A program made the translations under genes and the position numbers. Shown here piece by piece: positions 1,717 to 43,781 of a stretch of 64,000 nt of DNA; position 1 is the stretch's first letter; each line of letters begins with the position of its first letter. This stretch comes from Adineta ricciae (lineage: Eukaryota > Rotifera > Eurotatoria > Adinetida > Adinetidae). The stretch is from assembly GCA_905250025.1 (NCBI GenBank), contig CAJNOJ010000290.1:1-64000 (forward strand), written 5' to 3'. Below the pieces are notes generated by a model that saw only the letters and a list, made by a program, of their open reading frames with translations, ran no database searches and was not told where the DNA came from.

Positions 1717-3015
1717 TTCTCTGTATAATAATGATTGGTATTTAATTTTTATATTTATTTTTTTGATTGTTTCTCTTTTTCGTTTGAAACGATCCCTTGA
1801 TAGATAGGAAAGAAATATCTGGATAGTTTTTATCTAAAATTAGAATTTTTTGTATGGAAAATAAAACATGGGCCATTGAGTCGTATTAAATTTGGCATTT
1901 CTTCTGTATGCAATTCAGCCTAAAAATCTGTTCTATACTATTTTAATAACTAACAGATACGAATCAAGTTTAAAGAAAGAAGTAAAAGTGTGATTAGATC
2001 AATTATCATTTGCTAGAAACATCTTTCTCATTCTCTCTCTGATTTAGTTCTAGAACGATGATGACGAATATAAAACTTGCCAGTGCTGATAAAACTAAAC
2101 AATAGTACAGTTAAATTTATTCATCACCTAAAGTTGCGCTGAATCATGATTCTTTTATTGTTTGAATCAATGTTATACAAACAAGCATATTTTTTTCTTT
2201 CATATAATTCTTTCTTTCATCTACAGAACATCATGTAATGTGACAGAATAATTTGAAGATTGATTTACTAAATATGAACTCACATTCATGATTATATCAC
2301 ATACGACAGTAGCTGACACTTTGATTGTGTCCGTATCAACAAGGACGCACGTTGTTCTTTTGAATACATCTGTACATTTATCTCGGTTAAATAAATCTTT
2401 CTAAACTGATTAGAATCATGATTATCACATCATATCGGTACAATCAATTATGAAGTACTTTGAAATAGAATGCGTTGTTTTTTTCCTAAACAAAAATCTT
2501 GTGTAGAAGTATATGTTTTCTAATAGCAAAACTATTGAAAATAATTTGTTTTGATATTCTCACACTGTAATGAAAATGAAAGAAATTATCAAAACGACTC
2601 TTTGAAGAATTAATTGAACTGTGACAGGATGTATTTTCCTGCGTATAAAAAACATGAAAACATTTTTTTTTGAGGATGCAGATAATGACAGAGTTGATAT
2701 TTTCTGTCTGAGAATTGAGAAAATCATACATTGTCTACAGAATATAAGATCTAAAAACGAGTAAAGATCTTTTAAAATGAATATGTCGATACTCGACACC
2801 ACTCTAATAATAATAAACAATTCATATAGATAGTTTAATAGTTAGCATCTTATCTAAGTACGTAAGAACAGAAAATTTCTAAAGAAAAATTTTTTATTAT
2901 CAAATGTCAAAATACTCATCGAGTCAAAATAGAATAAATACTCTTTTTCGCGAATATTTTATAATTTGATTTTTCTCATTTGATATCCATTATTTTCCTC
3001 ATACAGATAAAAATC
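1717..3015. other. Upstream region of receptor 1, no gene seen
   Basis: AT-rich DNA shared by blocks A and B (17330-18668 in B). Block B carries about 48 bp, flanked by a GTTTCTC repeat, that A lacks near 1770. Reading frames here differ between copies through indels, so I regard them as chance. Confidence 0.5.
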
Positions 3016-4021
3016 ATGGACGTTGGATATATTAACCGAATAACAAGTGACTTAGCACTGTACGGCAGTTTTATTTTACTCATTCTTGGCAATATAGGAT
3101 GCTTATGCAATTTTATAACATTCTCATCTAAACAAATGAGACAAAATTCATGTGGTTGGAATTTCCTCATGTCAACTATAGCAGATTTTTTCCTTTTCAA
3201 TTCTCTTTTGCCGACGAAAATGGCGAGTGATTATTTTGGTAACACTTTGATTCTTACATCGTCTCTTTACTGCAAAATGCGTACTTTTATTGGATTTACA
3301 TTACCATCCATTTCTCTCGGTTATTTGGTATTCGCTGCATTGGATCGATGCTTAGCAACATCACAAAGTACACGTCTTCGCTCGTTTAGTCAAATAAAAG
3401 TAGCACATCGTTTGACATGTGCGCCAATTCTTCTTTACACCTTTACTACTGCACATCAGCTCTATTATTATGATTTACGATCGAAATGTGCACCACTACC
3501 CGGAAACTACTCAATTTTTATGTCAGTCTACAATATTATCTGGACAAGTTTAGTTCCACAAAGTATCATGCTCACATTTGGTCTTGTCACGTTCTACAAT
3601 ATGCGAGCAAGTCGTCGACGTTTGATCGTTCAAGGTGCACAACAACGGAATCAATTACGAAATCGAATCGATACTCATTTCATTACCATTGTACTCGTTC
3701 AAGTGTTAACCAGTTCCATTTTACTCAATACTCTCAAAGAATCTCGTCAAAGACAATCAACGACTTGCTCTCGAGTCATTGCTCTTACAAGTATCGAGCT
3801 TAATTTTCTATTTAAATTTCGCTAAGAGTTTCTTCTTCAATACACTGACAAGCAAACTCTTCCGTCAAATCTTGCGTGATCGTGTTTTAGCCTGTTTCAA
3901 TCTTAACGGATTATGGAATACTCGTATTCGACCTATCCAAACAAAAAATATCGCGTCAAATCAATTGAACAATATACGAAACAAAACAGATAATTTTGTA
4001 ATCAATGCAATTACTCAATAA
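3016..4021 (+). pseudogene. Rhodopsin-like 7TM receptor 1, version A, frameshifted
   Basis: This is the version-A copy of the receptor at 18669-19661. It keeps the start (MDVGYINR), the TM1 GN motif, the TM3 cysteine and a DRC triplet in place of DRY. At about 3730 it has lost 29 bp relative to version B. In B the lost stretch lies between two direct copies of TACTCAATA, and A keeps only one, as expected from slippage or repeat-mediated deletion. The frame shifts in TM6 and the original frame ends at 3825. The TM7 and C-tail sequence survives in another frame up to 4021. Unless spliced around, the product lacks TM6-TM7 and should not signal. Its 3' end faces the caspase gene only 27 bp away. 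Confidence 0.85.
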
Positions 4022-4048
4022 ATATTTGTCACGCTTATTCTGTTCTGT

Positions 4049-4910
4049 TTATTTTACAAGTAATCCTTCTTCGACCTTCGTTTTCTTTTTGCCATCATTT
4101 GAATTTAATGGCCTATCAATTAAATAAATTGGTTCAAAATCGATTAGACCATCATAACGTGTTGGTTTTTGCCTTTGTTTACTTTCAATACAAACACCAT
4201 TGTTTACACTTCGGAATAATTGTCGTAAATCTTTATTTGGTTTTGTCAGATGTTTCAATAAATGTTTCGCATACAATCCATTTCTTTCAATCAATAAACC
4301 ATCCGAAGCAATTTGATATTGACTACAAGCGAATACAACATATGTACCTTTTGGTACTTTTGTATCTTCTGAAGCATTATTTTCGTATTTAACTAAACAC
4401 ATATTATATATTTAGAAGAGACATTACTCATTTATATTTCCTACCGTTATTTCGTCTTTTTCTATGTCGGTGGGAATATGGTAATCGACAACAATCTAAT
4501 ATAAATATGATAATAGACGATGGAAATTGTTGTGACCATTGACAAAGAATCTGTTCAGTATGAATGACAGAATTTTCAATACCTTGTTCCTTTGCAATCA
4601 ATTCATCATCAATCGGTAATAAATAATTCTTTCCATTCATTTCACAACCATGACCAGAAAAATAGAATATAATCAAATCGCCATTGCGTATTGTTTTTGA
4701 AAACTCAGAAAAAACATTCTTCATTTCTGAATTACATAAATCATAATGTTTTCTCACATGAAAATTCATCGTTCGTAAAGTATGACTAATATCATTGACA
4801 TCATTGATCGTATGAAAAAGTTGATCTTCGTGTGCACGATAATTTTGATTTCCAATAAGTAATCCAACTTTACGTTCAAAGATTGCATGATTGAAACTTG
4901 TAGTATCCAT
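4049..4910 (-). CDS. Caspase-like cysteine protease, version A
   Basis: Two exons, 4910-4445 and 4392-4049, joined over a 52-bp GT-AG phase-1 intron, give 269 residues. The start was chosen at MDTTSF because the upstream extension open in this copy is frameshifted in version B. The fold is the p20-type caspase/paracaspase domain: the early LLIGNQNY strand, the catalytic histidine in YFSGHG (H87), and the catalytic cysteine in LDCCR (C141, matching the DxCR pattern). The domain starts near the N-terminus, so there is no long prodomain and no adaptor domain. Clan CD specificity cannot be told from sequence. It ends tail-to-tail with receptor 1; the two genes must share a very short 3' intergenic region. 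Confidence 0.85.
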
Positions 4911-7220
4911 GAAAAAAATAAATTTCAACTGAATTTCAAAACTTCTTTCTTTTGTCATTCCAAGCAAATGTGAGTCATATGAAAGTATTATGCAAGATTT
5001 CATATATATTTCATAACCATCTTGAAATGTGACTATTGCCAGATATGCACGTTAAAGAATGATTGAAATCATATAGAAGAGAAAACTAATTTGAGTAAAA
5101 ATGAAATTTTTTAATTTAATTCATATCAAATTCATTCATTGTTGTTATTGGAGAATAAACAGAATTTATATTTTCTCTATAAAAGCTGCGAATTTTTATT
5201 GATTCTCTTTAGTTCGATATCGCTTCCATCATGCACTACCAAGTCCAAGAAGAATAAAACCATATATAATACTTGATATGAAAAATACTGTCAGATAATT
5301 CCATTATACGGACATTCGTATAAGAAATCTTCACTCAATTTCCATGCTGGAAAATTGCGGTATTATGATCAATGTGGAACGGTGTGAATGGATAGTTATA
5401 TTTCAAGGAGAAACTGTTGCAAATCTGAATTTCCTGGAAGACGCTGTAGTGCAATCAAATCTCATCTTTTTTCGTCAATTAACCGAAAATGAACGTGCCG
5501 AAATCTAATGACATTTTTCCAACACGAACTTGAAGACGAAGAAGATGAACGGAGCTTTTGCCTCGTTCGACAAAGATTTTTCTGAATATTTTTCTCTCCC
5601 ACGTTCTTCTTCTCGTTCTTCACCGACGACGACGAATTTGGACGGTAAACGCGAAGAAAATCTCGACCAACGAAACTCGTCCTTGTCTCACCACCACGTG
5701 TTCCACCCCGCCGGGCAACCGCTCCCCCGTCGGTGGTTGAACCGACTGTAGTTTGACAGGTAAGTTCGTTATGATCACAAAATCATTTCACTTTCATCTG
5801 TGTTTGCGACTTTTAGCGTGTCGTCCGTCGTCCTTCGGTTCGATGACCATAGCTGATGGTGATAAGAATTTTTGAAAATGGTCATCCCTTTTGACTGAAT
5901 CAGTAGATGAGAAAGCTTAGATAGATGATTAGTAAGTTTTGCTAATTCAGTACGCATATTCATAATCTTTTTTTCCGTTCATGCACAAGAGCAATGTGCA
6001 GGAAAAGTGACATACACAAACAAATGACGTACGAAAGAAACGTGCATATAAGTGAGAGAATTGATATCAATAAAAGAATAAATGAGAAGTAGAAATCAGT
6101 AAGAACGTTCCTGGTCCATGGACTCAGTTGTCCTTTCGTATAAACCTTCCTTTCAAAATCGCCAAACAAAACAACGAAGGATAAAAATTGACGAATTGAA
6201 AGGGGTGAGCTTTGATTGTCAATGAATCATCGTATTTCGATTGATATTTATGAAGTTCTACCAGGTATCACAAGTACTTCTACTACTTAGAACATGAGAA
6301 TAATAAATCTGCTTTTACTACGATCAGTTAATTTCCTTGTAGTCCAATAAATAAAATTGCGACATATCAAATTCATGATTGTACTTGTTACAGTGACAAT
6401 GACGGATAAACGTGAACTTAGATTGGGATCTTTTTTTTAAAATAGAACCTAGTTTCACACGATAGGCAATTGTTTCAAACACAATCACGCAAACAATTGC
6501 CATCTAAATTCAATTTGGTGACTTTTTACCATCAATAGAACGACAGCAAATGCAATGAAAGAGAAAGGCATTCGTTTTTTAGTAGAAATATACGGTTCTT
6601 TGATCGAAAGGAATGTTTTTCTGATGAGAAAATGAATAGTTGGAAAGAAAAAGTACATACTCCAGTAACTGGATTGACCCGTCTTTCACCCGTTTCCTTT
6701 GTTCATATTTCAAACGCCGGTCGTATAGGTTCTTCGAACTTGATCGAATCCTATTCAAACCAAACAAAATGTGAATTTTTCATTTCTATTTTTCTTCTCC
6801 TACCCAATCATATTGCAAAACGGATTGTCGACGTTTCCAGGATTCAAATACATAAGTAATCTATATAATTATCCTGAAGCACTTTCATGGTACAGAAAAG
6901 CTTTTATACCTCAACAATAACTATTTCCTCCAAATCATCTTGATATATCTAGATCCTTCAACAACAGTGGGATGATGCATTACGGTACGGATGAAAATGC
7001 ACAAGTGTTTTAAGTGTGTATACATGCCGTGCAACTTAACCAACAGCTAACTCTCATCAAACTATCTTCAGATGCAACTGTATAAGAAAGATGTCGAAAA
7101 ACAAAACGAAAATGGTAGTTTTCAGTCCTTTTATTACATCTCCACATGAAATTTTCTAACTTCTATTGATATCTATGAGAATTTATTCATTATATAACAT
7201 ATAGATAAATATATCAACAT
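4911..7220. other. Intergenic region with small, weakly supported reading frames
   Basis: No gene I can support. It holds a low-complexity Ser/Arg/Thr-type reading frame around 5545-5690 (duplicated at 21229-21575), a 144-bp insertion relative to version B (listed separately), and the counterpart of a possible small membrane-protein exon (6571 downward), which in this copy is interrupted by about 31 extra bases. Hydrophobic frames at 5960-6169 are not kept in version B. Confidence 0.45.
5685..5835. other. 144-bp insertion flanked by a 7-bp direct repeat, with intron-like sequence
   Basis: Version B reads straight from ACTCGTCCTT into CGATTCG. Version A has an extra segment between two copies of CGTCCTT (5678-5684 and 5829-5835). 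The insert is GC-rich at its left (about 5695-5745) and then contains a strong splice donor, GACAG|GTAAGTTCG at 5758/5759, and an acceptor-like TTTTAG at 5810-5815. The direct repeat looks like a target-site duplication, though precise loss from version B by recombination between the repeats is equally possible. Confidence 0.55.
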
Positions 7221-8126
7221 TCAGTTTAGATGTATATCCGTAATAGGAACAATGGATTCTTTTACTGAAAAATTCAATTCTGCAAGAATGTCATGAGCAC
7301 TTTGCAAATGCTCTACTTTCGAGCGATATAATAAACCTGAATGGTATAAATTTAGATATTTGTTGATCATTTGCAAACGAACTTCCACGGAATATTTCTG
7401 TTTTTGATTGAGAAAGATAAGATCATTAGCAACCATATATCGAATCACTAATAAAGGCGTTCTCGTTCGAAATGGATAAAAATTCTCATTTCGGATTGCG
7501 TTAGAATTCGATGATTGATGAAATTCACCGAACATAAGACCATGTTGAATGATGAAAGTCGGTTTAAGTTCTGTTTGAATTTCATCAATTAAATTATGCG
7601 GAATATTCAACGAACGAATCAAAATAAGTAGACATTTATAAACCAATTTACTTTTTGTAGCATTAACTGGTTGTAATTTACAGAGAAAATCGTTTTTACA
7701 CCGTTCGATCATTTGGATAAATCGTGTCTTGTTCGTATATTCATCATTTGAAATGAAAAAATAAATCGTCTTTTGTTTGAATGCTACTGGCACAAACGGG
7801 CAGACTGGTCCTGATCGATTTATATATTCATTATTTTGACAAAGAAAATCTTGGATATATTCATAGATTGACACACAATCAAGATCAGACTTCGTATGAT
7901 ATTGATGAGTATTTTCACACCTATGAAACATATCGATAGGGATGAATGGACATTTCTCCTTATCATCAGCTCGTTGACAGTACAATCGATGAAATTGATG
8001 AAGATTTAAATAAGAAGGATAAGAATAATATCGATAAGATTTGATTATAAATACAATGAAAACGATTGTGGTTAAAATCAAGATAAAGATTTTGACATCC
8101 AACAATTCGATGATTATTTGCTCCAT
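7221..8126 (-). CDS. Membrane-anchored DUF6875-like protein, version A
   Basis: A single exon of 301 residues. Residues 10-30 form one hydrophobic span (signal anchor), followed by basic and tyrosine-rich SYRYYSYPSY. The rest is soluble and carries SGPVCPFVP (C109), GLMFGEFH (196-203) and a run ending in IRYMVANDLIFL (228-239). I recognise this motif order from bacterial DUF6875-type proteins, whose biochemical role is not known to me; the anchor would be a eukaryotic addition. Version B (22887-23792) has the same length and few substitutions, so it appears maintained. It is divergently oriented to the ubiquitin-like gene, sharing a 775-bp upstream region. A bacterial origin is inference. Confidence 0.7.
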   Translation of the reverse strand: MEQIIIELLDVKIFILILTTIVFIVFIIKSYRYYSYPSYLNLHQFHRLYCQRADDKEKCPFIPIDMFHRCENTHQYHTKSDLDCVSIYEYIQDFLCQNNEYINRSGPVCPFVPVAFKQKTIYFFISNDEYTNKTRFIQMIERCKNDFLCKLQPVNATKSKLVYKCLLILIRSLNIPHNLIDEIQTELKPTFIIQHGLMFGEFHQSSNSNAIRNENFYPFRTRTPLLVIRYMVANDLIFLNQKQKYSVEVRLQMINKYLNLYHSGLLYRSKVEHLQSAHDILAELNFSVKESIVPITDIHLN

Positions 8127-8901
8127 TTGTTGTTCGAAATGAAAGATTTCTCGCAGAGAAACATTCGTTTATATAATATAGATTGAAATTGGTATTTTCC
8201 CCAACAACGCAAATCACCGATTTTTCGTTGTTCGTATTTAGTTACTATAGATAGAAATATTATCTTTCCCATCGACGTCATTCATTGTATTTTACTCTTT
8301 GTTCTGTTAATCGTATCGTTGGCATTAATACCAGTCATTTTCTTGTGCGAAGAGAAAAAATAATCGCGTTGCTCGTTTTGCATATTCATTTGGAATTTTT
8401 ATTCAAATTCAATTATAACAGATTATCAATAAGAGATAAACCATCGAGGATTTTTTTCAACTAAACAAGAAGGATCATTCATTTAATTCAATGATTTATA
8501 TTCTAGATGGTAGACAGTTTATCTTGATATCAAAGCATGGTTCTAGAGAACAGATCTGTACGGCACTATAGCTATTCGCACATGATCAGAGTCGGATGTT
8601 ATTCTCGGTGTATACTGTCTATTGAAAACTAAATAAATATCTGGAAATTGTTTCACCCTGTGAGTTCAAAAAGATTTTCGACCTCAAAAGACGGTGTATT
8701 TTTAAGATACAGAAAGTAAAGCAGCAGGTGTTGTGTACATTTTTAAAAATTTTCGACACGGTTGCGGAAAAAAACTACTTAAGAATGATTCATACTATTG
8801 ACTTTTGTTAGCTGGTTTTTTCCAATATAGAAGCCCTATAAAATCATACTTTTTTGCGCTACATTTAATTTAGACGAATAACTCTACACATTTCTCCCAG
8901 A
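8127..8901. other. Shared upstream region of two divergent genes
   Basis: This 775-bp stretch separates the DUF6875-like gene (-) from the ubiquitin-like gene (+). It is conserved in version B (23793-24566). No further coding region is seen. A TATA-like site lies near its right end. Confidence 0.5.
8837..8844 (+). promoter_or_regulatory. TATA-like box of the ubiquitin-like gene
   Basis: TATAAAAT, 65 bp before the ATG at 8902; the same octamer sits at the same distance in version B (24502-24509, ATG 24567). Position and conservation suggest a core promoter; not proven. Confidence 0.45.
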
Positions 8902-10139
8902 ATGGCTGCCGCTAGTATTGCTTCATTCACATTTGAAAACTTAGTTTCTAAAGTACAGGCCATTCAAAATCAAGCAACTCAGTTCGAAAATGTGCTTAAT
9001 CGTCGTTGTCAAGAAAACAGTCATGTCAAGGATCGGTTGAAATCTCGTTCATTTACATTCATAGACCCTTATGGACACCATCTCACTGATGAGTTTTTCG
9101 ATCATGATTTGATCAGTAAAGTCCTCAAGCACTTCAAGAAAAACTATGTACCCAAGTATCTACAAAAATGGACTCAAGTTGGTATAATGAGAGAAAATAC
9201 GCTCTCAGGGTTGACTGATGCTCAATTAAACTCACCTGTTTCTCATTTTGATACTCACTTTCAATTCATTGCATATGGTCCAGTGACTGTGTGGCTCGGG
9301 AAGTATGAATCTGCTCGACTCAGGCAACTTACAATCTCGGTTCGGTTAATGGACACAATCGAAACTATCAAATCAAAAATACTTCAAAGATTAAGCGTGA
9401 AAAATATCGAAATCAGATTATGTAGAGTGCCACAGTTCGCAAAACCATATCGAGAGAGTTGGCTCAATGCCACACACCTACATGTAAACGAAACAGTTAT
9501 GTCGTGTCGATTATACGAAGAAGATGCAGTCATCATGGCTAATATTGTCTCGAACCAGGTAAGGTAGTGTTCATTTGCATAAATTTCCTTCATTTATACT
9601 TTTAGAATCTAGACGTCAATGCTGAGTTTGATATATGTGTGAAAACGCTCACTCACCTTGTGATTTATTTGTCTGTTTGTCAATCAGATACTGTGCAGAA
9701 TTTGAAAGAAAAAATACAGGATAAAGAAGGTATTCCTCCCGATCAACAGCGTTTAATCGTTGCGGGTGTTCAGTTAGGAGCTGATGCAACAATAGGCGAA
9801 TATGACATACGAAATGGGACAACACTTCATCTAGTACTAAGATTACGTGGCGGAATGTTTCATAGTACCAGTGGAAGAGAGAACTTTGATTATCTGTTGT
9901 ATACTAATACAACTGTCGTTAAAAACATTTTCAAATTTCACCGTAACGATACGAAACAAGCATATTGTCTGTCATCGAGGAAGTTGCAAGATTTCATTGA
10001 ACAAGCACATAGTGTTTTAGCTGATTTATACTACGGAATTGAAAATATTGATATACATATGCCATCTTCCGATCTAAAGGACGACATATTTCCACGGATG
10101 AATAATCAAGAAGAAAGCAGTGACGATGATAGCCAGTAA
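8902..10139 (+). CDS. Ubiquitin-like domain protein, version A (intact)
   Basis: Exons 8902-9558 and 9606-10139, joined over a 47-bp GT-AG phase-0 intron, encode 396 residues. Residues 227-302 are a clear ubiquitin domain: ICVKTL at its start, [18 protein letters not shown], and LRLRGG at 301-302, followed by MFHSTSGR rather than ending. The GG is therefore internal, so cleavage by a deubiquitinase or a non-conjugated role are both possible. Residues about 130-219 may be a second, much diverged beta-grasp unit ([16 protein letters not shown]). The far C-terminus is acidic and serine-rich (EESSDDDSQ). TTT/leucine changes inside the domain (HLVIYLSV for the usual GKTITLEV) mark it as ubiquitin-like, not ubiquitin. 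Version B carries a stop at codon 27. Confidence 0.85.
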
Positions 10140-10599
10140 TGGTAGATAAACTCTATACTCTTGTTTTTTATAACTTTTTTAAAGATCCATCTCGAAGGAT
10201 ACAATGACTTGCAGCATTAATAATACAGAAATAAGCTTTTTATGTCCTTGATGAGTTACTAAATTTGCTTTGAGCCATTACCTAAAAGTCCAATTTATCA
10301 AGAGAGTGTACTTTCATAGAAACTCTGTACATCATCAACGATAGACAAAGAGATGAAGTTGAATCTATATCATATATTAACGAATCTCTTACACTTTTGC
10401 AATTTTACACCTGTTCTCTCGAGGAGAGTCACATGTTTTCAACAGAACAACAAAAAAGAAGAATTGCAGACTGCCGTCCGAATGGTGCAAGTAGAAGTAA
10501 AGAAAAAAGGGCAAATATTTGCTTTTACGCACATATACAGGACCACTATTTTTGTTAGTATTTACCAAGTTATTTTTCATGTTAGTTCACATCGATATT
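10140..10599. other. Intergenic, no gene seen
   Basis: The first about 120 bp after the stop (TAGATAAACTCTATACTC onward) are also found after the truncated ubiquitin-like relic at 14470, showing that the relic arose by DNA duplication including the 3' flank. The remainder leads into the F-box gene. Confidence 0.5.
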
Positions 10600-12398
10600 A
10601 TGTTTGGAAAAGCGAAACTCGAAGATCTAGCTAATGAAATATTTTATGAAATCTTCGAATATCTCGATTATTTCCAATCTTATGAAATTTTTTCGCATCT
10701 CAATCAACGTTTTCAAAATCTGTTCACTCATTCGATTTCACCAATCAAAATACATCTTAATGCAATATCAAAACCAACTTTTACAGCATATTACGAACAC
10801 ATTATTCTTCCAAATGCACATCGAATTCAATCCCTTCATCTCTCCAATCAATTTATCATCAACTTATTTCTCTCATCTCTTTCTATTATTCCAAAATTTA
10901 TTCATCTTCAAACATTTGTCATCACTTCCCTTCCATCGACTGCTATAGACCAGCTTTTCAGTAATCTATCGACTTTACCCCATCTCTCTTCACTAATCTT
11001 TGCTTTCGAAACTTATCTTCGCGACAGAAGTTACTTATATCAGCAAATATTTCGTCTGCCTTCGTTGAAATATTGTAAATTCTCCTTACACAAATATCAT
11101 TATTCAGAGCGTATACCTTTTGCAACAAATATGTTTAGTTCTCTTACAAATTTGATTGTTGCCGAAGAGTTTTGCCTTGACGATATTGTTCCTCTTCTTT
11201 CAAATGTTCCCCAACTTCATTATTTATCCATTCGCAAACTATCAAAACTTTATACTTCACGAAGAATTTCTTCAATCATTCCAAACCAACTAACGCATGT
11301 CTATTTGAATCTTGGAGATGTTTATTTCGATAGTTTTGAGCCTGTGATTAAATTCGTTTTCCACCATGTGCAAGTGTTACACCTTAGAACACCGGCAGAT
11401 CTATCCTACTTGAACGCAAATCGATGGGAATCACTTATACCATCCTATATGCCACATCTAAGAATATTCGACCTCCAACAACATATTTTTACAAATACAA
11501 TTCATGGAACGATATATTTGCCACTAATGGAAAAATTTCAATCCGCATTCTGGTTGGAACGACAATGGTTTTTTGCTTATCATAGTAAGGAAGTGGAGAA
11601 TAGCTGTGAAATATACATATATTCAACGAATCCGTATAGGTATGACTTGATCGATTAATTACTGTACTTGAATAGATGAAATTTTGATTTTTAAGGAAAA
11701 GGAAATTTACATTAAATTTGGAACGACGAAAAGTAACTGGCTCCACTACGCGGGAAGAAACAGAAATGCAATCAGTACAACATCTTGTGTTACAAAACGA
11801 GAATACATTTGCCAATGGGTCAACATCTTTTCCAAACGTCACACAACTTAATTTTGAACAAGAAAATCCGTTTGAAGATGAGGCATATATCTCGCCAAGT
11901 TTTCTCAGAAATTTTCTTCATATGGAACGAATCACACAACTCAAGACTTACGTTTCTTATTGTTATTTAAAAGATTTAACCGAATTGATTCTTTCTCTAC
12001 CCAATCTTGAGAAAGTATATCTTTATCACACTGGTTTCAATGAGACAAACGCGAGCTTCTGGAAGCCGAATGAGATGCTCATTCCAATGTTTACTAAAAA
12101 TCAAATCAAAGATGTGACAATTTCAATTCAGGCGTGCTCATTTGAAGATATGAAGTTTTGGGTGCATCTTTTCCCCCGAGTCGAGCGTTTGACCATATCA
12201 TCATTGAACAATTATTCGTTAGAAACTATCGAATATATATTATCAAATGTCGCCGAGAAAACGCCATATTTGCATTTGTTATCATTTTACATCCGTAATA
12301 CTTCTGTGTTTGAAAAGGTCAAAAGTCTAGTTCAGTCACAAGTGATACCTATTGATTGTATGACGCAAGATATTCGCGCTGTTCATTTATGGTGGTGA
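10600..12398 (+). CDS. F-box/leucine-rich-repeat-like protein, version A
   Basis: Exons 10600-11639 and 11696-12398 join over a 56-bp GT-AG phase-2 intron to give 580 residues. The N-terminus (LEDLANEIFYEIFEYLD followed by LNQRF) is an F-box of the form common in bdelloid genomes. The rest consists of irregular leucine-rich segments such as LPHLSSLIF, LPSLKYC, VPQLHYLSI, LPNLEKVYLY, fitting a curved substrate-recognition surface. The expected role is a substrate adaptor of an SCF-type ubiquitin ligase; the substrate is unknown. The start was placed at MFGKAKLED; two upstream in-frame ATG/TTG options exist. Both versions are open and spliced the same way, so it seems under selection. Confidence 0.8.
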
Positions 12399-12720
12399 GG
12401 ATGTGAGGCGAATATGGAAAGAGTGCTGAAATGACAGTTGAAAGTGAAGAAGCAAGCTCGTTTGTGTTGTTTACTAATTTTTATGTATTTTTGTTTCTTT
12501 CGTTGTGCTTTGCACGTTCGTGCGAATTCGTGTGCAATATATCCTACTACTTTCAATCTCAAGATTCACCATAAAACACATGTGCCGTGTTTTGTTTGTT
12601 ATGACTCATGGATGCGAATATCTGTTCTTTCATCATGAGCAATGTTGACGATCGCGTCAGTATGAATCACAAACTTCATATTTAAGTACAACTGTTTCAA
12701 TCGCACAGCACAACAAAACG
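12399..12720. other. Upstream region of the dynein-stalk gene
   Basis: No gene seen. TATTTAAG at 12679-12686 lies 42 bp before the ATG at 12721 and is kept at the same distance in version B (28349-28356, ATG 28391), a likely core promoter element. Confidence 0.4.
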
Positions 12721-13214
12721 ATGGCATCAACCAGTACAGATGAAGAAACAACACTCGCTGCTTTAGAAGGCATGAACGTTCACCTAGAGCATGTTATTCT
12801 CTCTCATTACATTGTATTTTCTTGTCTTTAGCTGCAAAAGCTGGACTAAATGTCCTAACCAAAGCTTCAATTACCGAAATACGATCATTTGCTCGACCAC
12901 CTAAAGTGTGTGAGACAGTATTCGAAGGTATAGGTATACTGTTCCAGCCGTCAAAAACGAAATTTGAATGGAGCGATGCGAAGAGTTTAATGAACGATAA
13001 TTTTTTGAGCCGACTGATAGGATTTGATATCAATAGTATAAGCGAGACGACGCTTGCGCGATTGGAAGTATTGCTCAATCGGGACGAATGCCAATTAGAT
13101 CGTGTAAAAAGCACATCATTGGCATGCTATGGTATCTGTATGTGGCTTCGTGGTATTGTGGCATACGGAAAGATTCGACAACACTTAGAACAACAAAAGC
13201 AAATTCAAACGTGA
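12721..13214 (+). CDS. Solo dynein microtubule-binding stalk protein, version A
   Basis: Exon 1 (12721-12769) and exon 2 (12832-13214) give 143 residues. The sequence corresponds to the distal stalk of dynein heavy chains: the end of coiled coil 1 (LAALEAAKAGLNVL then ITEIRSFARPP), the helical tip domain with VCETVFEGIGILF, W-SDAKSLMND-FLSRL-FD, and the start of coiled coil 2 (KSTSLACYGICMWLRG). No AAA+ module, tail or linker is present and there is no room for them. Whether it binds microtubules alone is unknown. In this version the intron donor is GC (GAAG|GCATGA), where version B has GT; the acceptor is TTTAG. GC-AG introns can be spliced, so I treat the gene as intact. Confidence 0.8.
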
Positions 13215-19661: not shown

Positions 19662-19730
19662 AACAAAACAGATAATTTTGTAATCAATGCAATTACTCAA
19701 TAAATATTTGTCACGCTTATTCTGTTCTGT

Positions 19731-24509: not shown

Positions 24510-24566
24510 CATGCTTTTTTGCGCTACATTTAATTTAGACGAATAACTCTACACATCTCTCCCAGA

Positions 24567-33779: not shown

Positions 33780-33926
33780 ATAAAATTTTGTTTTCTGAAA
33801 ACTATAAAATCATAAAGGGTGATGGTGTCGAGGATGGCAGGAGATATGTTTATTTTTTCTTATGAAATCGTGACTATATGCACTTCTAGATGATTTTTTT
33901 CGTTCAAAAAAAGAAAATCCCAAGAT

Positions 33927-35020
33927 TTAGTTTATTGGTTTCATATGCAGCAATAAGTCATAAGTGACTAAAGACGCTCGTGCTTTAATGAAATATTCGA
34001 TGTCTGAATATGGAATGTGGGGACATATTCTTCTGGATTGACTGTCCATGGTTTCCGCTTGACTGTTCATTAATTCTGGATCTTGCCGGCAGACCAGAGC
34101 GAACTTCACTTTGTATCGATTAACTTCGTTTGAAGTGAAATCATACGACGGAGCATAAACAGGAAGATCAGCGTAAGCAATGGTAGATGATGTGTAGATG
34201 AAATACTGCCCAGAAATATGACCACAGGACGAATGGGTAAGATGGAACCATCGAGTAATTGACCGCCAGAAATGCTAAAAATACGTTGCGTTAGAGTTGA
34301 TAAAGCAGCTTCTTGTCGGATACCGTGATAAGTCATCAGTCATTTATTCTAAATATCGTTAACTTCTTGCTTGACTTGATGAACACAGACACCTAAACGT
34401 ATCCAACCACGTGGTATCACATAATGTGCGCCACCAGCAAATAAGACATCATTACGTTCAGATCCATAACATGAAGTGCAATAGCAACGATCATGCTTTG
34501 CGTTAAATAGAGCACTTGGTCATTGTAAATATGATATGAATTGGCGTGCTACAAAAATCTTCTTGCATCCATTTACTTTGCTCGACATTCTTTTGCCATA
34601 ATTACTTGCAACAGGATGATGTAGAATGACGCCCTAAGGGTGAAGGTTATCCCTGGATATTTGATTCGAATCGAACGATTTCCGGAAAGTAGGTGTCGGA
34701 ACGGGTGATGAACTCCTCGAACTACTTTTGAGACTATTTGTCGGACTTTCAGTCTTTTCACACACATCTTCTGCACAGAGCTATCTGAATGATCTCATGC
34801 CTCGTACAACGTGTTCTGGATTTGGACGCCTATCAACGTCGTCTTTATCCTTTTTAAGTCGACTTTTCCAATGCTTTTGCTCCCAGGTTTCTATGTTTTC
34901 TAATCCGACACGTTGTCTCTTCAATATAGCTTGTTCACGTTCCGCTTGTCGTTTCCAACGTTCCTGTACTCGCATTTGCCGCTGCAGTGTTCGAGTCAGT
35001 TCTCTTTACTAGGCGATCTT
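33927..35020 (-). pseudogene. Decayed gene with CYC-C and YHGT motifs, version C
   Basis: Read on the minus strand, broken frames encode a basic coiled-coil start (RWKRQAEREQAILKRQR), then KHDRCYCTSCYG, HYVIPRGWIRLG, QEVNDI, TYHG, GSILPIRP, and a C-terminal part with ALVCRQDP and PHIPYSDIEYF ending KPIN. The order (zinc-like CxC cluster, then IPRGW, then W-VTYHGT) is one I know from repeated uncharacterised bdelloid proteins; the YHGT strand loosely recalls PARP-type folds. In this copy the tryptophan codons of the NDIWNKW segment have become stops (TAG, TGA) and further frameshifts occur, while the CYC-C motif is intact. Confidence 0.6.
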
Positions 35021-36407
35021 GATTCCACCGCTCATCAGATATCGTTTCTCGATAGAAATGAGATAAGTAATGGTAACAATTTGTGTCAGGTGTCGAAAGC
35101 AAAACTATCGTTCAGTTGTCTGTGTCTTTTATCTGAAACGCATTGTGCCGTTGAGAAAGGCACAAAACGAATTCTGGATCAGAAACAGAAATGCAGCAAT
35201 GCGTCCGAAGGATCACTGAAGAGAAACAAAAAAACAACATCACTGGGGAACTTCCAACTTTCAATTTCTGTGAAAGCAAAACAATACGAGAACTTCGGAT
35301 TTTATCCGAAAGTTATGTGTACTTCAAAAAAGTGTGTCGGATAGAAGAAACAATGATTTATAGAGAAATAGCAGTTCTTTTCTAATAGCCTACCACCAGT
35401 CACCCATCTAATCAGTCTCATCTTCAAATTCTAGTGAGATTTTTAGGTCAAAATCTCACTTGCGTAGCATCTAGATAACCACCACTTGTCCGTTCGCTCG
35501 TGTGCGAACGCTCTCTTCATGTTCCATGTCCGTCGACGAGTGCCATGAAAAATTGAGGGTGTGAAAGTATTCGTGAGTTTAACACCATAGGCAACCCTAT
35601 CGCTCTCAAACAAAGAACCTACTAACTGTGTTGGAAGAGAAAAGAAATTCGTTTTTCTTTCTTCATTTGCAATACAAATCCGTACATATTGTAAATCTTC
35701 TATATAATAAAGAAAGATATACTATCAAACAAACATGCAATGAATCATCCAAAACTTTTCTTTTACTTTCAATCGTATGAACTAAAAAGATCAAAATACA
35801 AAATACTGAATTTTACGCTAATCGTAATCTGTGCATAATGGTCGCGTACCTTACTTTTGCTAGATAAACAGTAATTCAAAACAATAGCTGCGACTTTTAC
35901 GTTTCATCTTATACAATTTTTGTGGCAAATAGTAACATTGGTGAAAACATCGCTGAGACCGGTGTTTCCAGTGGCGAAGCTATCCGATTCGGTCAATCGC
36001 CTGGTTTCGTATTTGATGAAGGGATGAATACGTGTGTGGCAGAATTTAACAATCGCCGAGTTCAAAAGCTTCAGAAACTTTAATTATTAAAAGATGGATT
36101 AACGTCATCTTCAATCTCGATTCGTTGGTTTTTTTATTGATTTTATTTCAAAGGTAATGCGCAAATATACCAAGTCGTTTATGGTTACCTTACTAACATG
36201 TTGAGTCAATATGTAGAAATATCACTGACTTCTGCGTCTTTATTTATTATCGTTATTACCTTTTTTTTCTATGCGCACATGCAGTGTTTTGATAGTGATA
36301 TTTTAACGTGTGTAGATTCGTTGTCGACATTTGATTCATCTGCAAATGAATTCGACCTTCCACGTACATTCGATAGAAATAAGTCTTATTGCTTTAGATA
36401 ATCACCG
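35021..36407. other. Intergenic with an NHL relic
   Basis: Apart from the NHL-repeat relic at 35922-36083 I see no gene. GAAG|GTAA-like and CTTTAG sites before 36408 leave room for a 5' UTR intron of the next gene, unproven. Confidence 0.4.
35922..36083 (+). pseudogene. NHL-repeat relic, version C
   Basis: A 53-codon frame ends with GFVFDEGMNTCVAEFNNRRV followed by QKLQKL and a stop. The pattern (a VFDE-type strand, VAEFNNRRVQK) is the closing half of an NHL beta-propeller blade. The preceding sequence has stops and no start codon, so it is a fragment of a decayed NHL protein. Version D keeps the same frame (41676-41837). Confidence 0.6.
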
Positions 36408-36812
36408 ATGGGACAAGGTGAGGCAAAACCTATTGACTGTAATCCTGATCGTATAAACTCGATTCTAAAACTCGACGTTTTCAATGATTCGGAAATCGAA
36501 ATGCAACTTGGAAAAACCTGGTCCGTCCTTCGATTTATAGGCGAAGGTAAAGCAAATGACTTACATTTGAGCTTCGCTATTCAAGATGGATACGCCACAA
36601 ATACACACTTAACCTGCCGAGCAATCGAATATCGTAAGGGCAAATACCATATAAGTTTTGTGTCGCAATGGAACGAAATCGAAGAATGGTATCAACAGTG
36701 CTGTAACAAGTTACATGTTGAAAGAGACGGTCGTTTCATGGAGAAAGTTCACCGGTGGCATAATCAAGTGGAAAACAATGTTACAGTTCGAATCGAACAT
36801 GACGAATTATGA
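36408..36812 (+). CDS. Small conserved protein of unknown function, version C
   Basis: An open frame of 134 residues starting MGQGEAKPID. I do not recognise a family. It is rich in charged residues and tryptophan (WSVLRF, SQWNEIEEWYQ, VHRWHNQV), with no membrane span and no signal peptide; the MGQxE start would fit N-myristoylation. Version D (42160-42564) has the same length with only a handful of substitutions and no indel, while flanking DNA carries many indels; that contrast is the main evidence that it is a real gene. An AATAAAG follows about 55 bp after the stop. Confidence 0.65.
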   Translation: MGQGEAKPIDCNPDRINSILKLDVFNDSEIEMQLGKTWSVLRFIGEGKANDLHLSFAIQDGYATNTHLTCRAIEYRKGKYHISFVSQWNEIEEWYQQCCNKLHVERDGRFMEKVHRWHNQVENNVTVRIEHDEL

Positions 36813-37692
36813 TCAGTACATCTCTATTGCGTATACACGTTTTTTTTATTTATTGTAACAAACAGAAATAAAGTTTGTCTTGATTGATTCATGCCTTCGA
36901 GAAACTAGAAAATGATGCAAAAATTATTGATTTATAATGTTCGATGATTTGCTTTTGTTTTCTATGTTTAAGTAATTTTTGTTTATTTAAAAGCTGAATA
37001 GAATGAATTTCTTAGACAAAGATGTATGGTCTATTTTCATTTTCCGCGAGTTCATCGACAGCACAATATTGCTGGCGTTTTACCCAACAGCAGACAACTT
37101 GCAGATGTACGACAATATAAAGATCAGGTTTGCAGTCATCTATCAATGGTATAGAAGGCTCATACAATTCTCGACGGAAGTGACCTGCAAAACTACAAAA
37201 TATGATCAGAAAAGGAACATTACAAACTATGTCATTTATTTCAATTCAGTAAAACTTGATCAACAGAAATATTACAACCCAAAATCGCATTATGATTGTA
37301 TCTTCTATATAACGTTTAAGTTTGTTCGATACTGAAGAAGAAACCTTCTGTTAAGTACCATATTCTATAGTGTGTCTTTTTTCTCTTCTTTTATTAATCA
37401 TTTAACCGATATTCACAAGTGCAGGCGCAATTCATTGCCTTCTAACACATCTCGTTTCACAAGTAACGCTCATCCCTCAGATTCGCACACCCTTTCCTGA
37501 AAGAAGTCTGAAGTATTTGACTTAATCAGTTGCTTTTAACGATGAAAATCTTGACGCAAACATGCCGCTACAGTTTCTACTATACTGAGGACACTTTTCG
37601 AACAGATTCATTTCCTTTAATATCGTATTCCTATTGGAATATAATTTGTTAAACCCAATAAAGAGTTATTCAAAGTCTCGCGACCAATTCAG
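36813..37692. other. Intergenic before the assembly gap
   Basis: A 110-codon frame at 37003 is not kept in version D (2-bp indel after MYDN), so I do not call it. Nothing else seen. Confidence 0.45.
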
Positions 37693-37750
37693 NNNNNNNN
37701 NNNNNNNNNNNNNNNNNNNNNNNNNNNNNNNNNNNNNNNNNNNNNNNNNN
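37693..37750. other. Assembly gap (58 Ns)
   Basis: A run of Ns joins the end of block C to the middle of the fusion gene in block D. Confidence 0.98.
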
Positions 37751-39582
37751 CGGAGACTTTGTTCATCATGTTACAATCGATCGATGATGATCGTGTAGAA
37801 CGAAAGACGATTTCTCTCGATTGTGATACGATTTATTTCAAACCAATTCTCGAACGTTTCCGTCAACTACCCGCTCATCTCAATGCTTCGTTCTACTTCG
37901 AAGATCACGGTGGCAAACCGATATTTTCCTACTTGAAATTCGAACATGAGCCATCTGACCCTGAACATCCACCAGTTGTTACCGATGTCGCCGAAAAGAT
38001 CATGATTTCAACGCATGCAAACACAGGTGCTTATGCGTTTAGCTCAACATCGATTATGAAAGAATACTGTATTCAATTATTGGACGAAGCTGTCGGAGAA
38101 TCCGGAGAATATTATACTACGCATATTATTAAACTCATGTTAACAGATAAAGAACCATTCGTCGGTCTACCTGTGCAAACCGATGATTTTGTTTGCGTTG
38201 GCACGCCCGATCAATTGAAAACGTTTTTAAAACGATTGAAAAGCAAAGATACTCCCGTGCAAGTTCGGAAGATGCGATTTTGTTTCGATTTGGACAATAC
38301 ACTCGTTTCTTATCCAACCAAGTATGGTGATTACAGCACTGTTCTACCTAAATCACAAAATATTCGACTGGTTCAAGAATTGCACGCTGCCGGGCATTAC
38401 ATTATCATTCAAACAGCTCGTCGAATGAAAACCCATAAAGGAAATGTCGGTGCCGTGATAGCAGACATCGGACGAGTAACGATTGAAACGTTGGCAAACT
38501 TCAACATTCCTTACGATGAATTGTTCTTCGGTAAGCCTTACGCAGATATTTACATTGACGATGCAGCAGTACATGCATTGATCGATACGGCAAAAGAAAT
38601 CGGTTGGATGCCGGACGATGATCAAACGAACGATGTGAACCCGTCCACCAAGTCACATACAATTCAGTATTTGGATAATTTAATTATTAAAAGTTCGTTC
38701 ATGGACGATTTGAAAGGTGAAATCTTCTTCTATGAAAATGCTCCAACATCGATTAAAGATTTATTTCCACAACTGCATCGAGTCGAACACAATGCGGAAA
38801 CGAATATTGGCTCGATTATTCTGGAAAAGATAGAGGGTATTAGTTTCTCGCAGCTGTTCACTAATTTATGCATCACTCACGGACGAATATTGAAGTTTCT
38901 CACATCACTCAAACGTATTCATCTATCTCTGCCAGCCGATAGTGAAAAAGCAAAAGGAAACGTCTATGAAAATTATTCTAAAGTACTTTCAACACGACAC
39001 GAACAATATCTGGATTTGTATAAAAGTATTGATGATCATTTTCAAGGACAATCAGCAACGACAATGGTGCGTTCGCAAGAGCTCATCGATAACGTCGTCA
39101 AATATTTAAATGAATATGCAGCAGCAAAACGTGGTCAGTACCGTTCGATTATTCATGGAAATCCCATATTCAGTAGCGCTGTATTTACACCAGAAAATCG
39201 CATTGTATTCTTGGACATGCGTAGTTGTCTGGGAGCTAAATTGAGTTTAGAAGGTGATCTTAATTACGATCTGGGAAAAGTTTATCAATCGTTGATTGGA
39301 TATGATTTTATCCTTGCGGATAAGGGTCATTTGATTTCCGGGGAAATCATCGAAACATATCTTTTAGAATTAATTCCAATATTTGAAGAATTTGTCGATA
39401 GAGAATATTCGAACGCGGTGAATTGGACAGATCTGAAGATGATTACCGTTCATTTCTTGCTCAATTCCATTCCATCTCTGAAGAATTTCCAACATCAAAC
39501 TCAACTTTATCAACTGGCCGTCGATCTCTACCAGAAGATTATGCCAACGAAATCCAATGACAATACGGGTGTTTTGATATGA
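37751..39582 (+). CDS. Nucleotidyltransferase-HAD-kinase-like protein, version D, 5' end missing
   Basis: About 609 codons of the gene described at 31683-33779, lacking roughly the first 90 because of the N gap. No indel breaks the frame. The HAD motifs (FDLDNTL, IIIQTARR, YIDDAA) and the HGN triplet at the kinase catalytic loop are all kept, so the Asn is not a sequencing error in one copy. Differences are scattered and mainly silent or conservative (for example SLDLYKGI to YLDLYKSI). The missing start is probably 15956-16097. Confidence 0.85.
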
Positions 39583-39771
39583 AATTACAGCACTTTTTCT
39601 ATTATTGGACTTTGATTTGAATAAAATTTTGTTTTCTGAAAACTATACAGTCATAAAGGATGCCGGTGTCGATGATGGCAGGAGATATGTTTATTTTTTC
39701 TTATGAAATCGTGACTATATGCACTTCTAGATGATTTTTTTCGTTAAAAAAAAAAAAGAAAACCTCAAGAT

Positions 39772-41000
39772 TTAGTTTATTGGTTTCATATGCAGCAGTA
39801 AGCCATAAGTAACTAAAGACGCTCGTGCTTTAGTGAAATATTCGATTTGTGACTTTAGAATGTGCGGACATAATCTTCTGGATTGACTGGCCATGGTTTC
39901 CGCTTGAACATTCACTAGTTTTGGATCTAGTCGGCAGGCCAGAGCGAATTTTACATTGTATCGACTACTTTCGTTTGAAATGAAATTATACGACGGAGCA
40001 TAAACAGGAAGACCAGCGTAAGCACTGGTAGATGATGTGTAGATGAAATACTACCCAGGACGAATGGGTAAGATGGAGCCACCGAGTAATTGATCGCCAG
40101 GAGTGCTAAAAATACGTTGCGTTAGAATTGGCAAAGCAGCTTCTTGTTGGGTACCGTGATAAGTCACAGGCCATTTATTCCAAATATCGTTAACTTCTTG
40201 CTTGACTTGATCAACATAGACACCTAAACGTATCCAACCACGTGGTATCACATAACGTGCGCCGCCAGCATCTAATACATCATTATGTTCAGGCCCATAA
40301 CATGAAGTGCAATATCAACGATCATGCTTTGCGTTAAATAGAGCACTTGGTCATTGTAAATATGATATGAATTGGCGTGCTAGAAAAATCTTCTTGCATT
40401 CACTTACTTTGCTCGATGTTCTTTGGCCATAATTACTTGCAGCAGGACGATGCCGAATGGCGCCCCAAGGTGAAGGTTATCCCTGGATATTTGATTCGAA
40501 TCGAACGATTTCCTGAAAGTAAGTGTCGAGACGGGTGATGAACTTGTCGGACTTTTAGTCTTCTCACACGCATCTTCTGCACAGAGCTCTCTCACTAATA
40601 TTCTGCCTCGTACAACGCGTTCTGGATTTGAACGTCTATCAACGTCGTCTTCATCCTTTTTAAGTCGACTTTCCCAATGCTTTTGCTCTCGTGCTTGTAT
40701 GTTTCCTAATCTGTCATATTATCTTACCGATATAACTTGTTCACGTTCCGCTTGTCATTTCCGACGTTCCTGTACTCGCATTTGCCATACTGTAGCGTTC
40801 GAGTCAGTTCTCTTGCGAGGCGATCTTAATTCCGCCGCTCATCAGACATCGTTTCTCGGTAGAAATAAGATAAGTAATGGTAACAATTTGTGTCACGTGT
40901 CGAAAGCGAAACTATCGTTCAGTTGCCTGTATCTTTTATCTGAAACGCGTTTGCCGTTGAGAAAGGCGCAAAACAAATTCTGGATCAGAAACAGAAGCGC
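39772..41000 (-). pseudogene. Decayed gene with CYC-C and YHGT motifs, version D
   Basis: The same decayed gene as 33927-35020. Here the stretch from RYVIPRGWIRLG through NDIWNKWPVTYHGT to SILPIRPG reads open (40251-40051), but the cysteine of HDRC is a TGA stop and other frameshifts follow. The lesions therefore differ from those in version C. Confidence 0.6.
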
Positions 41001-42159
41001 AGTAATGCGTCCGAAGGATCACTGAAGAGAAACGAAAAACAACAACATCACCAGGAAACTTCCAACTTTCAATTTCTGTGAAAACAAAAAAAATGCGAGA
41101 ACTTCGGATTTTATCCGAAACTTTATGTGTACTTCAAAAAAGTGTATCGGATAGAAGAAACAATGACTTATAGAGAAATATCAATTCTTTTGTAATAGCC
41201 TACCAATCACCCATATAATCAGTCTCAGCTTCGAATTCTAGTAAGATTTTGTCCTAAAAATTTCGCTCACGTAGTATTTAGATAATCACCACTTGTCCAT
41301 CCGCTCGTGCGCGAACACTCTCTTCATGTTCTATGTACGTCGAGGTTGTGCAAGTATTCGTGAGTTTAGCACCAAAGCAACCCTATCGTTCTCAAACAAA
41401 GAACCTACTAATTGTGTTGGAAGAGAAAAGAAATTCTTTTTTTCTTTCTTCATTTGCAATACAAATCCGTACATATTGTAAATCTTCTACATAATAAAGA
41501 AAGATATATAATCAAACAAACATGCAATCAATCATCAAAAACTTTTCTTTTACTTTCAATCGTATGAACTAATCGTAATCTTTGTTGCATAATGGCCGCG
41601 TGCCTTACTTTTGCTAGATAAACAGTAATTCGAAACAATAGCTGCGAATTTTATGTTTCATCTTATGCAATTTCTTGTGGCAATAGTAGCACTGTTGAAA
41701 ATACCGCTGAGACCGGTGTTTCCGGTGGTAATTCGATCCGATTCGATCAATCACCTGTTTTCGTATTTGATGAAGGGATGAATACGTGTGTGACAGAATT
41801 CAACAATCGCCGAGTTCAAAAGTTTCAAAAACTTTAATTATCAAAATATGAATTAACGCAATCCTCATTCTCGATTAGTTGTTTTTCTATTGATTTTATT
41901 TCAAAGGTAACGCGCAAATATACCAAGTCGTTTATGGTTACCTTACCAACATGCTGAGTCAACACGTATAAATATCACCGACATGCGCCTTTATTTATTA
42001 TCGTTATTACCTTTTTTCTTCTATGCGTACATGTAGTGTTTTGACAGTAATATTTTAACGTGTGTAGATTCGTTGTCGACATTTGATTCATCTGCAAATG
42101 AATTTGACCTTCCACGTACATTCGATAGAAAAAAGTCTTATTGCTTTAGATAATCACCG
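41001..42159. other. Intergenic, version D, with an NHL relic
   Basis: Counterpart of 35021-36407. Only the NHL relic (listed) is recognisable. Confidence 0.45.
41676..41837 (+). pseudogene. NHL-repeat relic, version D
   Basis: 53 codons ending VFVFDEGMNTCVTEFNNRRV then QKFQKL and a stop, parallel to 35922-36083. The frame is preserved without indels, but no start codon or neighbouring blade remains. Confidence 0.6.
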
Positions 42160-42564
42160 ATGGGACAAAGTGAGGCAAAACCTATTGACTGCAACCCTGA
42201 TCGTATAAACTCAATTCTAAAACTCGACACTTTCAATGATTCGGAAATCGAAATGCAACTTGGAAAACAATGGTCCGTCCTGCGATTTATAGGTGAAGGT
42301 AAAGCAAATGACTTACATTTAAGCTTCGCTATTCAAGATGGATACGCCACAAATACACACTTAACTTGCCGAGCAATCGAATATCGTAAGGGCAAATACC
42401 ATATAAGTTTTGTGTCGCAATGGAACGAAATCGAAGAATGGTATCAAAAATGCTGTAACAAGTTACATGTTGAAAGAGACGGTCGTTTCATAGAGAAAGT
42501 TCACCGATGGCATAATCAAGTGGAAACCAATGTTACGGTTCGAATCGAACATGACGAATTATGA
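42160..42564 (+). CDS. Small conserved protein of unknown function, version D
   Basis: 134 residues, the counterpart of 36408-36812; starts MGQSEAKPID. Changes such as VF to TF and KTW to KQW are isolated; length and tryptophan pattern are fixed. Function unknown. Confidence 0.65.
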   Translation: MGQSEAKPIDCNPDRINSILKLDTFNDSEIEMQLGKQWSVLRFIGEGKANDLHLSFAIQDGYATNTHLTCRAIEYRKGKYHISFVSQWNEIEEWYQKCCNKLHVERDGRFIEKVHRWHNQVETNVTVRIEHDEL

Positions 42565-43781
42565 TCAGTACATCCCTATCGCGTATACACGTTTTTTATT
42601 TGTTGTAACAAACAGGAATAAAGTCTGTCTTGATTGATTCATGCATTCGAAAAACTGGAAAATGATGCAAAAACTATTGATTTTAATGTTCGAGAATTTG
42701 CTTTTGTTTTACATGTTTAAGTAATTTTTTTTAATTTAAAAGCTGAATAAAATGAATTTCTTAGACAAAGATGTATGGTCTATTTTCATTTTCCGCGAGT
42801 TGATCGACAGCACAGTATCCCTGGCGTTTTACTCAACAGTAGACAACTTGCAGATGTACGACAATAAAGACCAGGTTTACAGTCATCTATCAATCGTATA
42901 CAAGACTCATACAATTCTCGACGGAAGTGACGTGCAAAACTAATTACAAACTATTTCATTTACTTCAATTCAGTAAAACTGATCAACAGAAATATTACAA
43001 TTCAAAATCGCATTATGCTTGTGTCTTCTATATATTAACGTTTAAGTTTGTTCGACACTGAAAAAGAAATCTTCTGTTAACAAGTACCATATTCTATAGT
43101 GTGTCTTTTTTCTCTTCTTTTATTAATCATTTAACCGATATTCACAAGTGCAGGCGCAATTCATTGCCTTCTGACACGTATCGTTTCATAAGTAACGCTC
43201 ATCTCTCAGATTCGCACACCCTTTTCTGAAAGAAGTCTGAAGTATTCGGCTTAATCAGTTGCTTTTAACGATGAAAACCTTGACGCAAACATGCTGCTAC
43301 AGTTTCTACTATACTGAGGACACTTTTCAAACAGATTCATTTTCTTTAATGTCGTATTCCTATTGGAATATAATTTGTTATACCCAATAAAGAGTTATTC
43401 AAAGTCTCGCGACAAATCTAGGAAGTCTACAGCCAAAACTCTTAACTACTTTCCACTTTAAAACTATGCTTTTGTTGGTTATCTAACTCGCAATCATAAC
43501 AAGAAATATTTTCCGCAGTTGACAGATCAACCCACTTTTACCCTCTTTATCAATCGCTTAATTTAAAGCTTTCTTATCTGTCTTTTATTTTGAAAGCAAA
43601 ATGAAGATGAGACTCATCAGCACATTACATTAAGCAGTGTCAAATGAAAAAATCAACAGAAAAAGTCGAGAAAATTGAGCTTGAATAATACATAATAACA
43701 ACAAAAAATATGTTTGAATGAAAATGCCACAAATACGATACAGAAGCATTTAATACATAAATACAAAGTAGAGAAATTCTC
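42565..43781. other. Intergenic
   Basis: Block similarity ends at about 43413; from there to 43781 the sequence is unique in the window. No gene seen. Confidence 0.45.

Follow-up and report, generated by a model that had tools for sequence, protein, structure and literature searches.

Introduction

When overlapping contigs from different haplotypes are placed adjacently in an assembly, the result mimics a segmental duplication (Kelley and Salzberg 2010, PMC2864568), and in the chimpanzee 82% of such false-duplication alignments stopped no more than 10 bp from the end of a contig. For heterotype false duplication, the excerpted results of Ko et al. (2022, PMC9516828) place 7-24% of false duplications on the same scaffold. 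In bdelloid rotifers, tandem homologues on one scaffold have been described for two blocks in Adineta ricciae and two in A. vaga (Nowell et al. 2018, PMC5916493), and homologues on one scaffold have been taken as evidence for ameiotic bdelloid genomes (Flot et al. 2013, as cited in PMC5916493). Here, we analyzed the first 64,000 bases (the window) of C290 (CAJNOJ010000290.1), a 125,384-bp scaffold of an A. ricciae assembly of 130.46 Mb in 1,033 contigs, in which a locus of about 20 kb appears twice in direct orientation, with one gene cut by a block boundary. C290 is almost certainly a mis-scaffolded interleaving of two homologous haplotypes of one chromosome segment.

C290 resembles the cases of Kelley and Salzberg in that overlapping haplotype contig ends stand at adjacent locations; unlike those cases, it is a ten-contig chain of 125 kb with overlaps of up to about 14 kb and about 5% divergence. 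As described in the part of Ko et al. cited here, divergent alleles appear as paralogues, gaps lie between the copies and genes are falsely gained; there the evidence was read depth and k-mers, whereas here it is a split insertion and a handover in copy number. The tandem homologues on one scaffold and the gaps across collinearity breaks are also features reported by Nowell et al., whose A. ricciae assembly comprised 174.5 Mb in 4,125 scaffolds; in contrast to the cited text of that study, we argue from the assembled bases themselves that the linkage is spurious.

Results

The window contains seven gaps, six of a single N and one of 58 N. In a BLASTN self-comparison, block A (1710-16097, forward strand, on contig c1, 1-16097) aligned to block B (17326-31824, forward strand, contigs c2 and c3) at an offset of 15.6-15.7 kb, mostly at 94-96% identity with one 890-bp piece at 85%. 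Block A ends at the single N at 16098, which joins c1, read as haplotype 1, to c2, read as haplotype 2. Block C (31948-37688, forward strand, the end of c3 and haplotype 2) aligned to block D (37751-43417, forward strand, the start of c4 and haplotype 1) in three pieces of 97, 87 and 91% at an offset of 5.7-5.8 kb, and the 58-N gap at 37693-37750 stands between contigs that overlap by 5.7 kb. A preliminary description of this DNA had proposed two versions of one 20-kb locus, A+D versus B+C, with offsets of 15.6 and 5.8 kb; the block comparison and the complementary breaks described below agree with this proposal, and the offsets were reproduced.

Both breaks fall within a single gene. Its full-length form, which we call the fusion open reading frame (ORF), is a 698-amino-acid single open frame at 31683-33779 on the forward strand, the haplotype-2 allele. 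The last base of block A aligns to 31824 and the first base of block D to 31948, leaving 123 bp (31825-31947, forward strand, 41 codons) present in haplotype 2 only, which forms the hole of haplotype 1 between c1 and c4, after which block D resumes block A. Block A ends one base into codon 48, as expected from the earlier placement of its stop at codon 47 before N 16098, and block D, the 3' part of the gene, starts at codon 89, position 2; the gene into which block D had been placed was correct, the codon (about 91) was not, and the missing segment, put at about 125 bp, is exactly 123 bp. More diverged copies of the ORF on scaffolds C370 (residues 1-678, 56%) and C689 (residues 1-458, 62%) cross codons 47-89 in single tblastn alignments. 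The haplotype-1 gene is accordingly displayed as two broken pieces around a complete copy, and unequal crossing over does not produce such a nested A[BC]D arrangement, in which the complementary breaks within a single ORF lie 123 bp from each other.

The association of gaps with duplicates extends along the whole scaffold. Counting a gap as positive when the left copy ends at it or the right copy starts there, a direct duplicate was found within 12 bp of eight of the nine C290 gaps and of all seven in the window, beyond those at 16098 and 37693-37750; the preliminary description did not mention this. Random positions had an abutting duplicate in 312 of 20,000 trials (1.6%), giving a naive binomial probability of 3e-14, and in a control region, C1:1-180000, an abutting direct duplicate was present at 0 of 5 gaps. 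Under a looser criterion the control yielded one of five gaps (105890-106846 versus 112423-113401, the second copy ending at the gap at 113402). This C1 pair belongs to a local direct duplication (C1:105444-106846 versus C1:111887-113401, 82-90%) that runs, in its second copy, right up to the gap at C1:113402; it is possibly another assembly-related duplication.

Long alignments connect c1 with c2+c3, c3 with c4, c4 with c5, c5 with c6, c6 with c7, c7 with c8, c8 with c9 and c9 with c10; all are direct and, save for short repeats, collinear. Each of the contigs c3 to c9 begins within sequence already represented in its predecessor; c2 and c10 begin in inserted, one-haplotype sequence. Moreover, the last 180 bp of c6 (54673-54852) are identical to the start of the non-adjacent c8 (61946-62125; 180/180), and the interposed c7 is 98.2% identical to c6 and 94.8% to c8, so that c6 and c8 are read as the same haplotype with the other interposed. 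From these relations we infer that haplotype 1 comprises c1, c4, c6, c8 and c10, and haplotype 2 comprises c2+c3, c5, c7 and c9. Same-haplotype adjacency is directly supported for c1-c4, c6-c8, c8-c10 and c2-c3; c3-c5, c4-c6, c5-c7 and c7-c9 were assigned by exclusion.

Beyond the window, an overlap between the ends of c8 and c10 had been predicted beforehand. No such overlap of at least 40 bp was detected; instead, c8 breaks off after the first 393 bp of an element that starts with CAGGGTTGCCATT directly after TCCACCAC (80732-80739), and c10 starts inside an element that ends with AATGGCAACTCTG directly before TCCACCAC (110968-110975). The two element ends are inverted copies of each other, with 12 of 13 positions matching; c9, which lies between c8 and c10, carries the uninterrupted site with TCCACCAC once (85427-85434). 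The simplest reading of these sequences would be one insertion with an 8-bp target duplication, its halves flanking a 29-kb contig with the empty allele; the halves would then be parts of one element whose interior is missing from the assembly. Because of the split insertion and the empty site on c9, we assign c8 and c10 to the same molecule and c9 to its counterpart. The alignments reach the contig end at eight of the nine gaps, the pattern of heterotype false duplication, and the sole gap without an abutting duplicate (110462) is accounted for by the insertion edge there. The transposon ends (C290:80740-81132 and C290:110463-110967) show inverted termini of the CAG(G/A)GTTGCCATT type together with an 8-bp target duplication, which we take to be consistent with a hAT-like element. 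An 81-amino-acid ORF in its right part had sub-threshold zinc-finger matches only (zf-C2H2_12, E 0.0018; zf-BED, E 0.033), and element-related sequence is also present at C290:109824-110124.

Copy number was determined by DNA searches of the same genome, in which only the best candidates are scored. For six of nine query stretches, the number of long copies with at least 94% identity was exactly two; two of the others were interspersed repeats and one was single-copy. All three stretches searched from blocks A and C had only the two C290 copies at this level, and a third long copy at 90% or more was not found in the own-genome search for two A stretches. The stretch present only in c6 (51955-54630), chosen because haplotype 2 is interrupted there from c5 to c7, gave one copy plus copies of 74-77% on C530. 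Outside C290, C1:50001-54000 has its second copy at 95% on a separate scaffold, C254. Toward the end of C290, the second allele follows c10 up to c9 position 101067 and continues on C758 (96%) from 101065, a handover within 3 bp, with C290 and C758 being 95-96% identical. More diverged copies, 66-77% identical, lie on other scaffolds (C354, C370, C689 and C530). The loci searched show the bdelloid-type pattern of two homologues at 90% or more plus diverged copies. In A. vaga, a search usually gives a pair of hits at 90% or more, which are the haplotypes, plus hits of about 65-85%, which are likely paralogues (PMC7749112); because the blocks are about 95% identical and the copies elsewhere 66-77%, matching the A. 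vaga pattern, we read A/B and C/D as homologues. Of the two options offered previously, haplotypes or homoeologues, the former holds at about 95% identity, and the latter does not fit, the diverged copies being 66-77% identical and on other scaffolds. The A/B and C/D divergence of about 5% is on a level with that of the outside allelic pairs C1/C254 and C290/C758, the only two compared, and resembles the allelic heterozygosity of 5.5% given for A. ricciae in the excerpt of PMC7953838. The stretches read here have a G+C content of about 35%, and the cited part of PMC5916493 gives 35.6% for this species.

The preliminary description had further expected A/B and C/D to be equally diverged. Uncorrected p-distances were 4.15% (161/3,883, c1-c2) and 5.23% (516/9,859, c1-c3) for A/B and 6.65% (363/5,455) for C/D, with window medians of 0.038, 0.052 and 0.054. 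In 500-bp windows no significant difference was detected between A/B and C/D (28 versus 11 windows, Mann-Whitney p = 0.17); this is compatible with equality and, with 11 C/D windows, a loose and weakly informative test of it. Taken together, the two pairs did not differ significantly from the other C290 pairs (pooled p = 0.46). The c4/c5 pair was given no weight because its value of 14% came from 1,088 columns of an alignment that had 924 gap columns; its two windows were kept in the pooled test, and c6/c7, with 215 columns only, contributed no window. Synonymous divergence was 0.056-0.156 in six A/B ORFs and 0.138-0.144 in two C/D ORFs, and the ratio of nonsynonymous to synonymous divergence (dN/dS) was 0.05-0.40 in all eight ORF pairs.

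Each block also contains an older, local ubiquitin-like repeat, at 10004-10254 and 14334-14586 in A and at 25670-25919 and 30056-30305 in B. The alleles are 96.4% and 94.8% identical, and the paralogues 93.6% (A1-A2) and 91.6% (B1-B2). The repeat occurs in both haplotypes and abuts none of the gaps, and by this comparison it appears to be a real internal duplication that behaves as one should.

The other contig junctions in the window follow the same scheme. Contig c2 starts with an interspersed repeat (16099-17258) whose final 125 bp or so occur in many copies (40 of 325 candidates scored); because a counterpart was not found in block A, the haplotypes are taken to differ there. Around N 21402 (21229-21575), the end of c2 and the start of c3 double a 173-bp segment that is 100% identical, a same-haplotype overlap left unmerged. 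On both strands this overlap yields artificial ORFs that span the N and contain an in-frame repeat (21155-21619), where an annotation pipeline might call a spurious repeat protein. The c4/c5 overlap around N 46261 (44196-47404) consists of two pieces, 806 bp at 97.3% and 351 bp at 93.4%, separated by sequence that does not align, and the c5/c6 overlap (48956-51954; 1,499 bp, 96.4%, zero indels) flanks N 50455 exactly. The c6/c7 overlap lies around N 54853 (54631-55074; 222 bp, 98.2%). The last haplotype pair of the window (54895-64000) is c7 (54895-61944) versus c8 (61946-68596, past the window end), around N 61945.

Several further features were recorded. The scaffold opens (1-653) with a high-copy interspersed repeat that, among the 40 candidates scored out of 328, has 83-96% copies on dozens of scaffolds and is probably the reason that the contig ends there. 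Farther on, a 7.3-kb stretch in c8 (C290:71400-78673) is absent from c9 at the matching site; c8 also has a 426-bp repeat (70213-70638 versus 74726-75151, 95.8%), and the stretch is a haplotype-specific insertion or a local duplication. A receptor-like ORF is shifted in frame by a 29-bp gap in the haplotype-1 copy (3640-3830 versus 19300-19500), measuring 286 amino acids from stop to stop as against 347 in haplotype 2; its likeness to a G protein-coupled receptor is by appearance only, with zero Pfam hits for the haplotype-2 ORF. The fusion ORF has a nucleotidyltransferase-like N terminus and a HAD phosphatase-like (EcbF/BcbF) middle, as suggested by a match to TIGR01689 with an E value of 5.8e-17, yet 61.8 bits against a cutoff of 162, and by structure-library matches to 1xpj_A (E 4.4e-15) and 4evw_A (E 5.6e-5); Pfam gave sub-threshold matches only. 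With its bacterial capsule-phosphatase-like HAD region and that N terminus, the gene may be a candidate for horizontal gain; a search for prokaryotic relatives, suited to close ones only, returned 11 pattern matches, of which none was confirmed. Separately, a COX1 frame of 467 amino acids with 11 TGA codons lies at C55:466242-467585, near the end of a 478-kb scaffold, in surroundings of 20.7% G+C with zero N in 4.3 kb, and represents either part of the mitochondrial genome attached to a nuclear scaffold or a copy residing in the nucleus.

Discussion

The interleaving of haplotypes could have arisen as follows. Haplotypes about 5% apart would be assembled as separate contigs, and the scaffolder would order the contigs of both along one path by linkage. 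Where the contigs overlap, the implied gap is negative; the second allele would be neither merged nor dropped, and one N would be written. Writing a negative gap as a single N may be a scaffolding convention. PMC5368935 gives this rule no support for SSPACE. The outcome would mimic tandem duplication at offsets of 15.7 and 5.8 kb, and one gene would seem to be divided between A, which has codons 1-47, and D, which has codon 89 onward. In the animal, the locus of about 20 kb would exist once on each of two homologues, with copies of about 70% identity elsewhere, as in a degenerate tetraploid of the bdelloid rotifer kind.

The C290 pattern appears to be an ordinary assembly artefact of a known kind, unusually well documented for a case argued from sequence, not from reads, depth or a second assembly. 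Several points weigh against this explanation. Both the split insertion and the handover to C758 lie downstream of the window. The association of gaps with duplicates is by itself no proof of an artefact because assemblers also break at true repeats, and the control region comes from a single scaffold (180 kb). The C1 gaps, four of one N and one of 38 N, show no duplication of this kind, so a single N by itself is no sign of misassembly. The identity of c6 and c8 is only moderate evidence because only 3 of 215 columns distinguish c6 from c7 in that region. At the 58-N gap a positive distance was written although the contigs overlap by 5.7 kb; the simple negative-gap rule does not predict this, and the gap would be mis-sized. 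Finally, C/D is numerically more divergent than A/B (window means 6.6% versus 4.9%, p = 0.17), owing to a stretch of about 2 kb at about 10%.

A genuine tandem segmental duplication, in one or more events with gaps falling at repeat edges, would explain why the copies are adjacent and in direct orientation, and the dN/dS values below 1 in all eight ORF pairs suggest that both copies are constrained. The A/B and C/D boundaries both carry N (16098 and 37693-37750), and a true repeat can also break an assembly; real local duplication does occur here, evident by the ubiquitin-like repeat inside each block. That repeat, however, is in both blocks and abuts no gap, whereas the block-level pattern recurs at eight of nine gaps. 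Instead of whole units in succession, the order is nested with complementary breaks 123 bp apart, a transposon is split with its empty site on the interposed contig, the ends of the non-adjacent c6 and c8 are identical, and long close copies number two, the second allele passing from C290 to C758. We consider a true tandem duplication very improbable. Descent of A+D and B+C as homoeologues (ohnologues) of the ancient bdelloid tetraploidy is the least probable of the readings, at the very edge of plausibility: the genome does hold more diverged copies of these loci, but they are 66-77% identical, whereas A/B and C/D are alike at about 95%, as are C1/C254 and C290/C758, and the A. vaga yardstick in the cited text of PMC7749112 assigns 90% or more to haplotypes.

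Real linkage of homologues along a single chromosome, an ameiotic genome structure formerly suggested for A. vaga, finds a parallel in the linked homologous blocks of bdelloid assemblies, including the two tandem cases in A. ricciae (PMC5916493, in the part cited). It would nevertheless demand a haplotype switch at nearly every gap and a transposon cut by the other allele, and Nowell et al. state that numerous breaks in collinearity lie across gaps in scaffolds and that at least some of them may be errors of scaffolding; real linkage on C290 is thus highly doubtful. Its variant, in which the tandem-linked homologues could not be split into haploid sets, as a remnant of an ameiotic genome, and the split transposon would be two half-elements by coincidence, strikes us as hardly credible on this sequence. 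Altogether, the results favor the interleaving of two haplotypes by mis-scaffolding.

Of the 64-kb window, about 25 kb is redundant sequence; for the 125-kb scaffold as a whole the figure is about 48 kb. Because these are second copies, gene counts, gene-family expansions and scans for tandem duplications are inflated here, as the preliminary description had anticipated in calling the gene count doubled. A split transposon with an empty site on the interposed contig provides a read-free test that could be tried on published assemblies. The finding is of modest interest for bdelloid rotifers, as it bears on the homologues-on-one-scaffold evidence once used for ameiotic bdelloid chromosomes.

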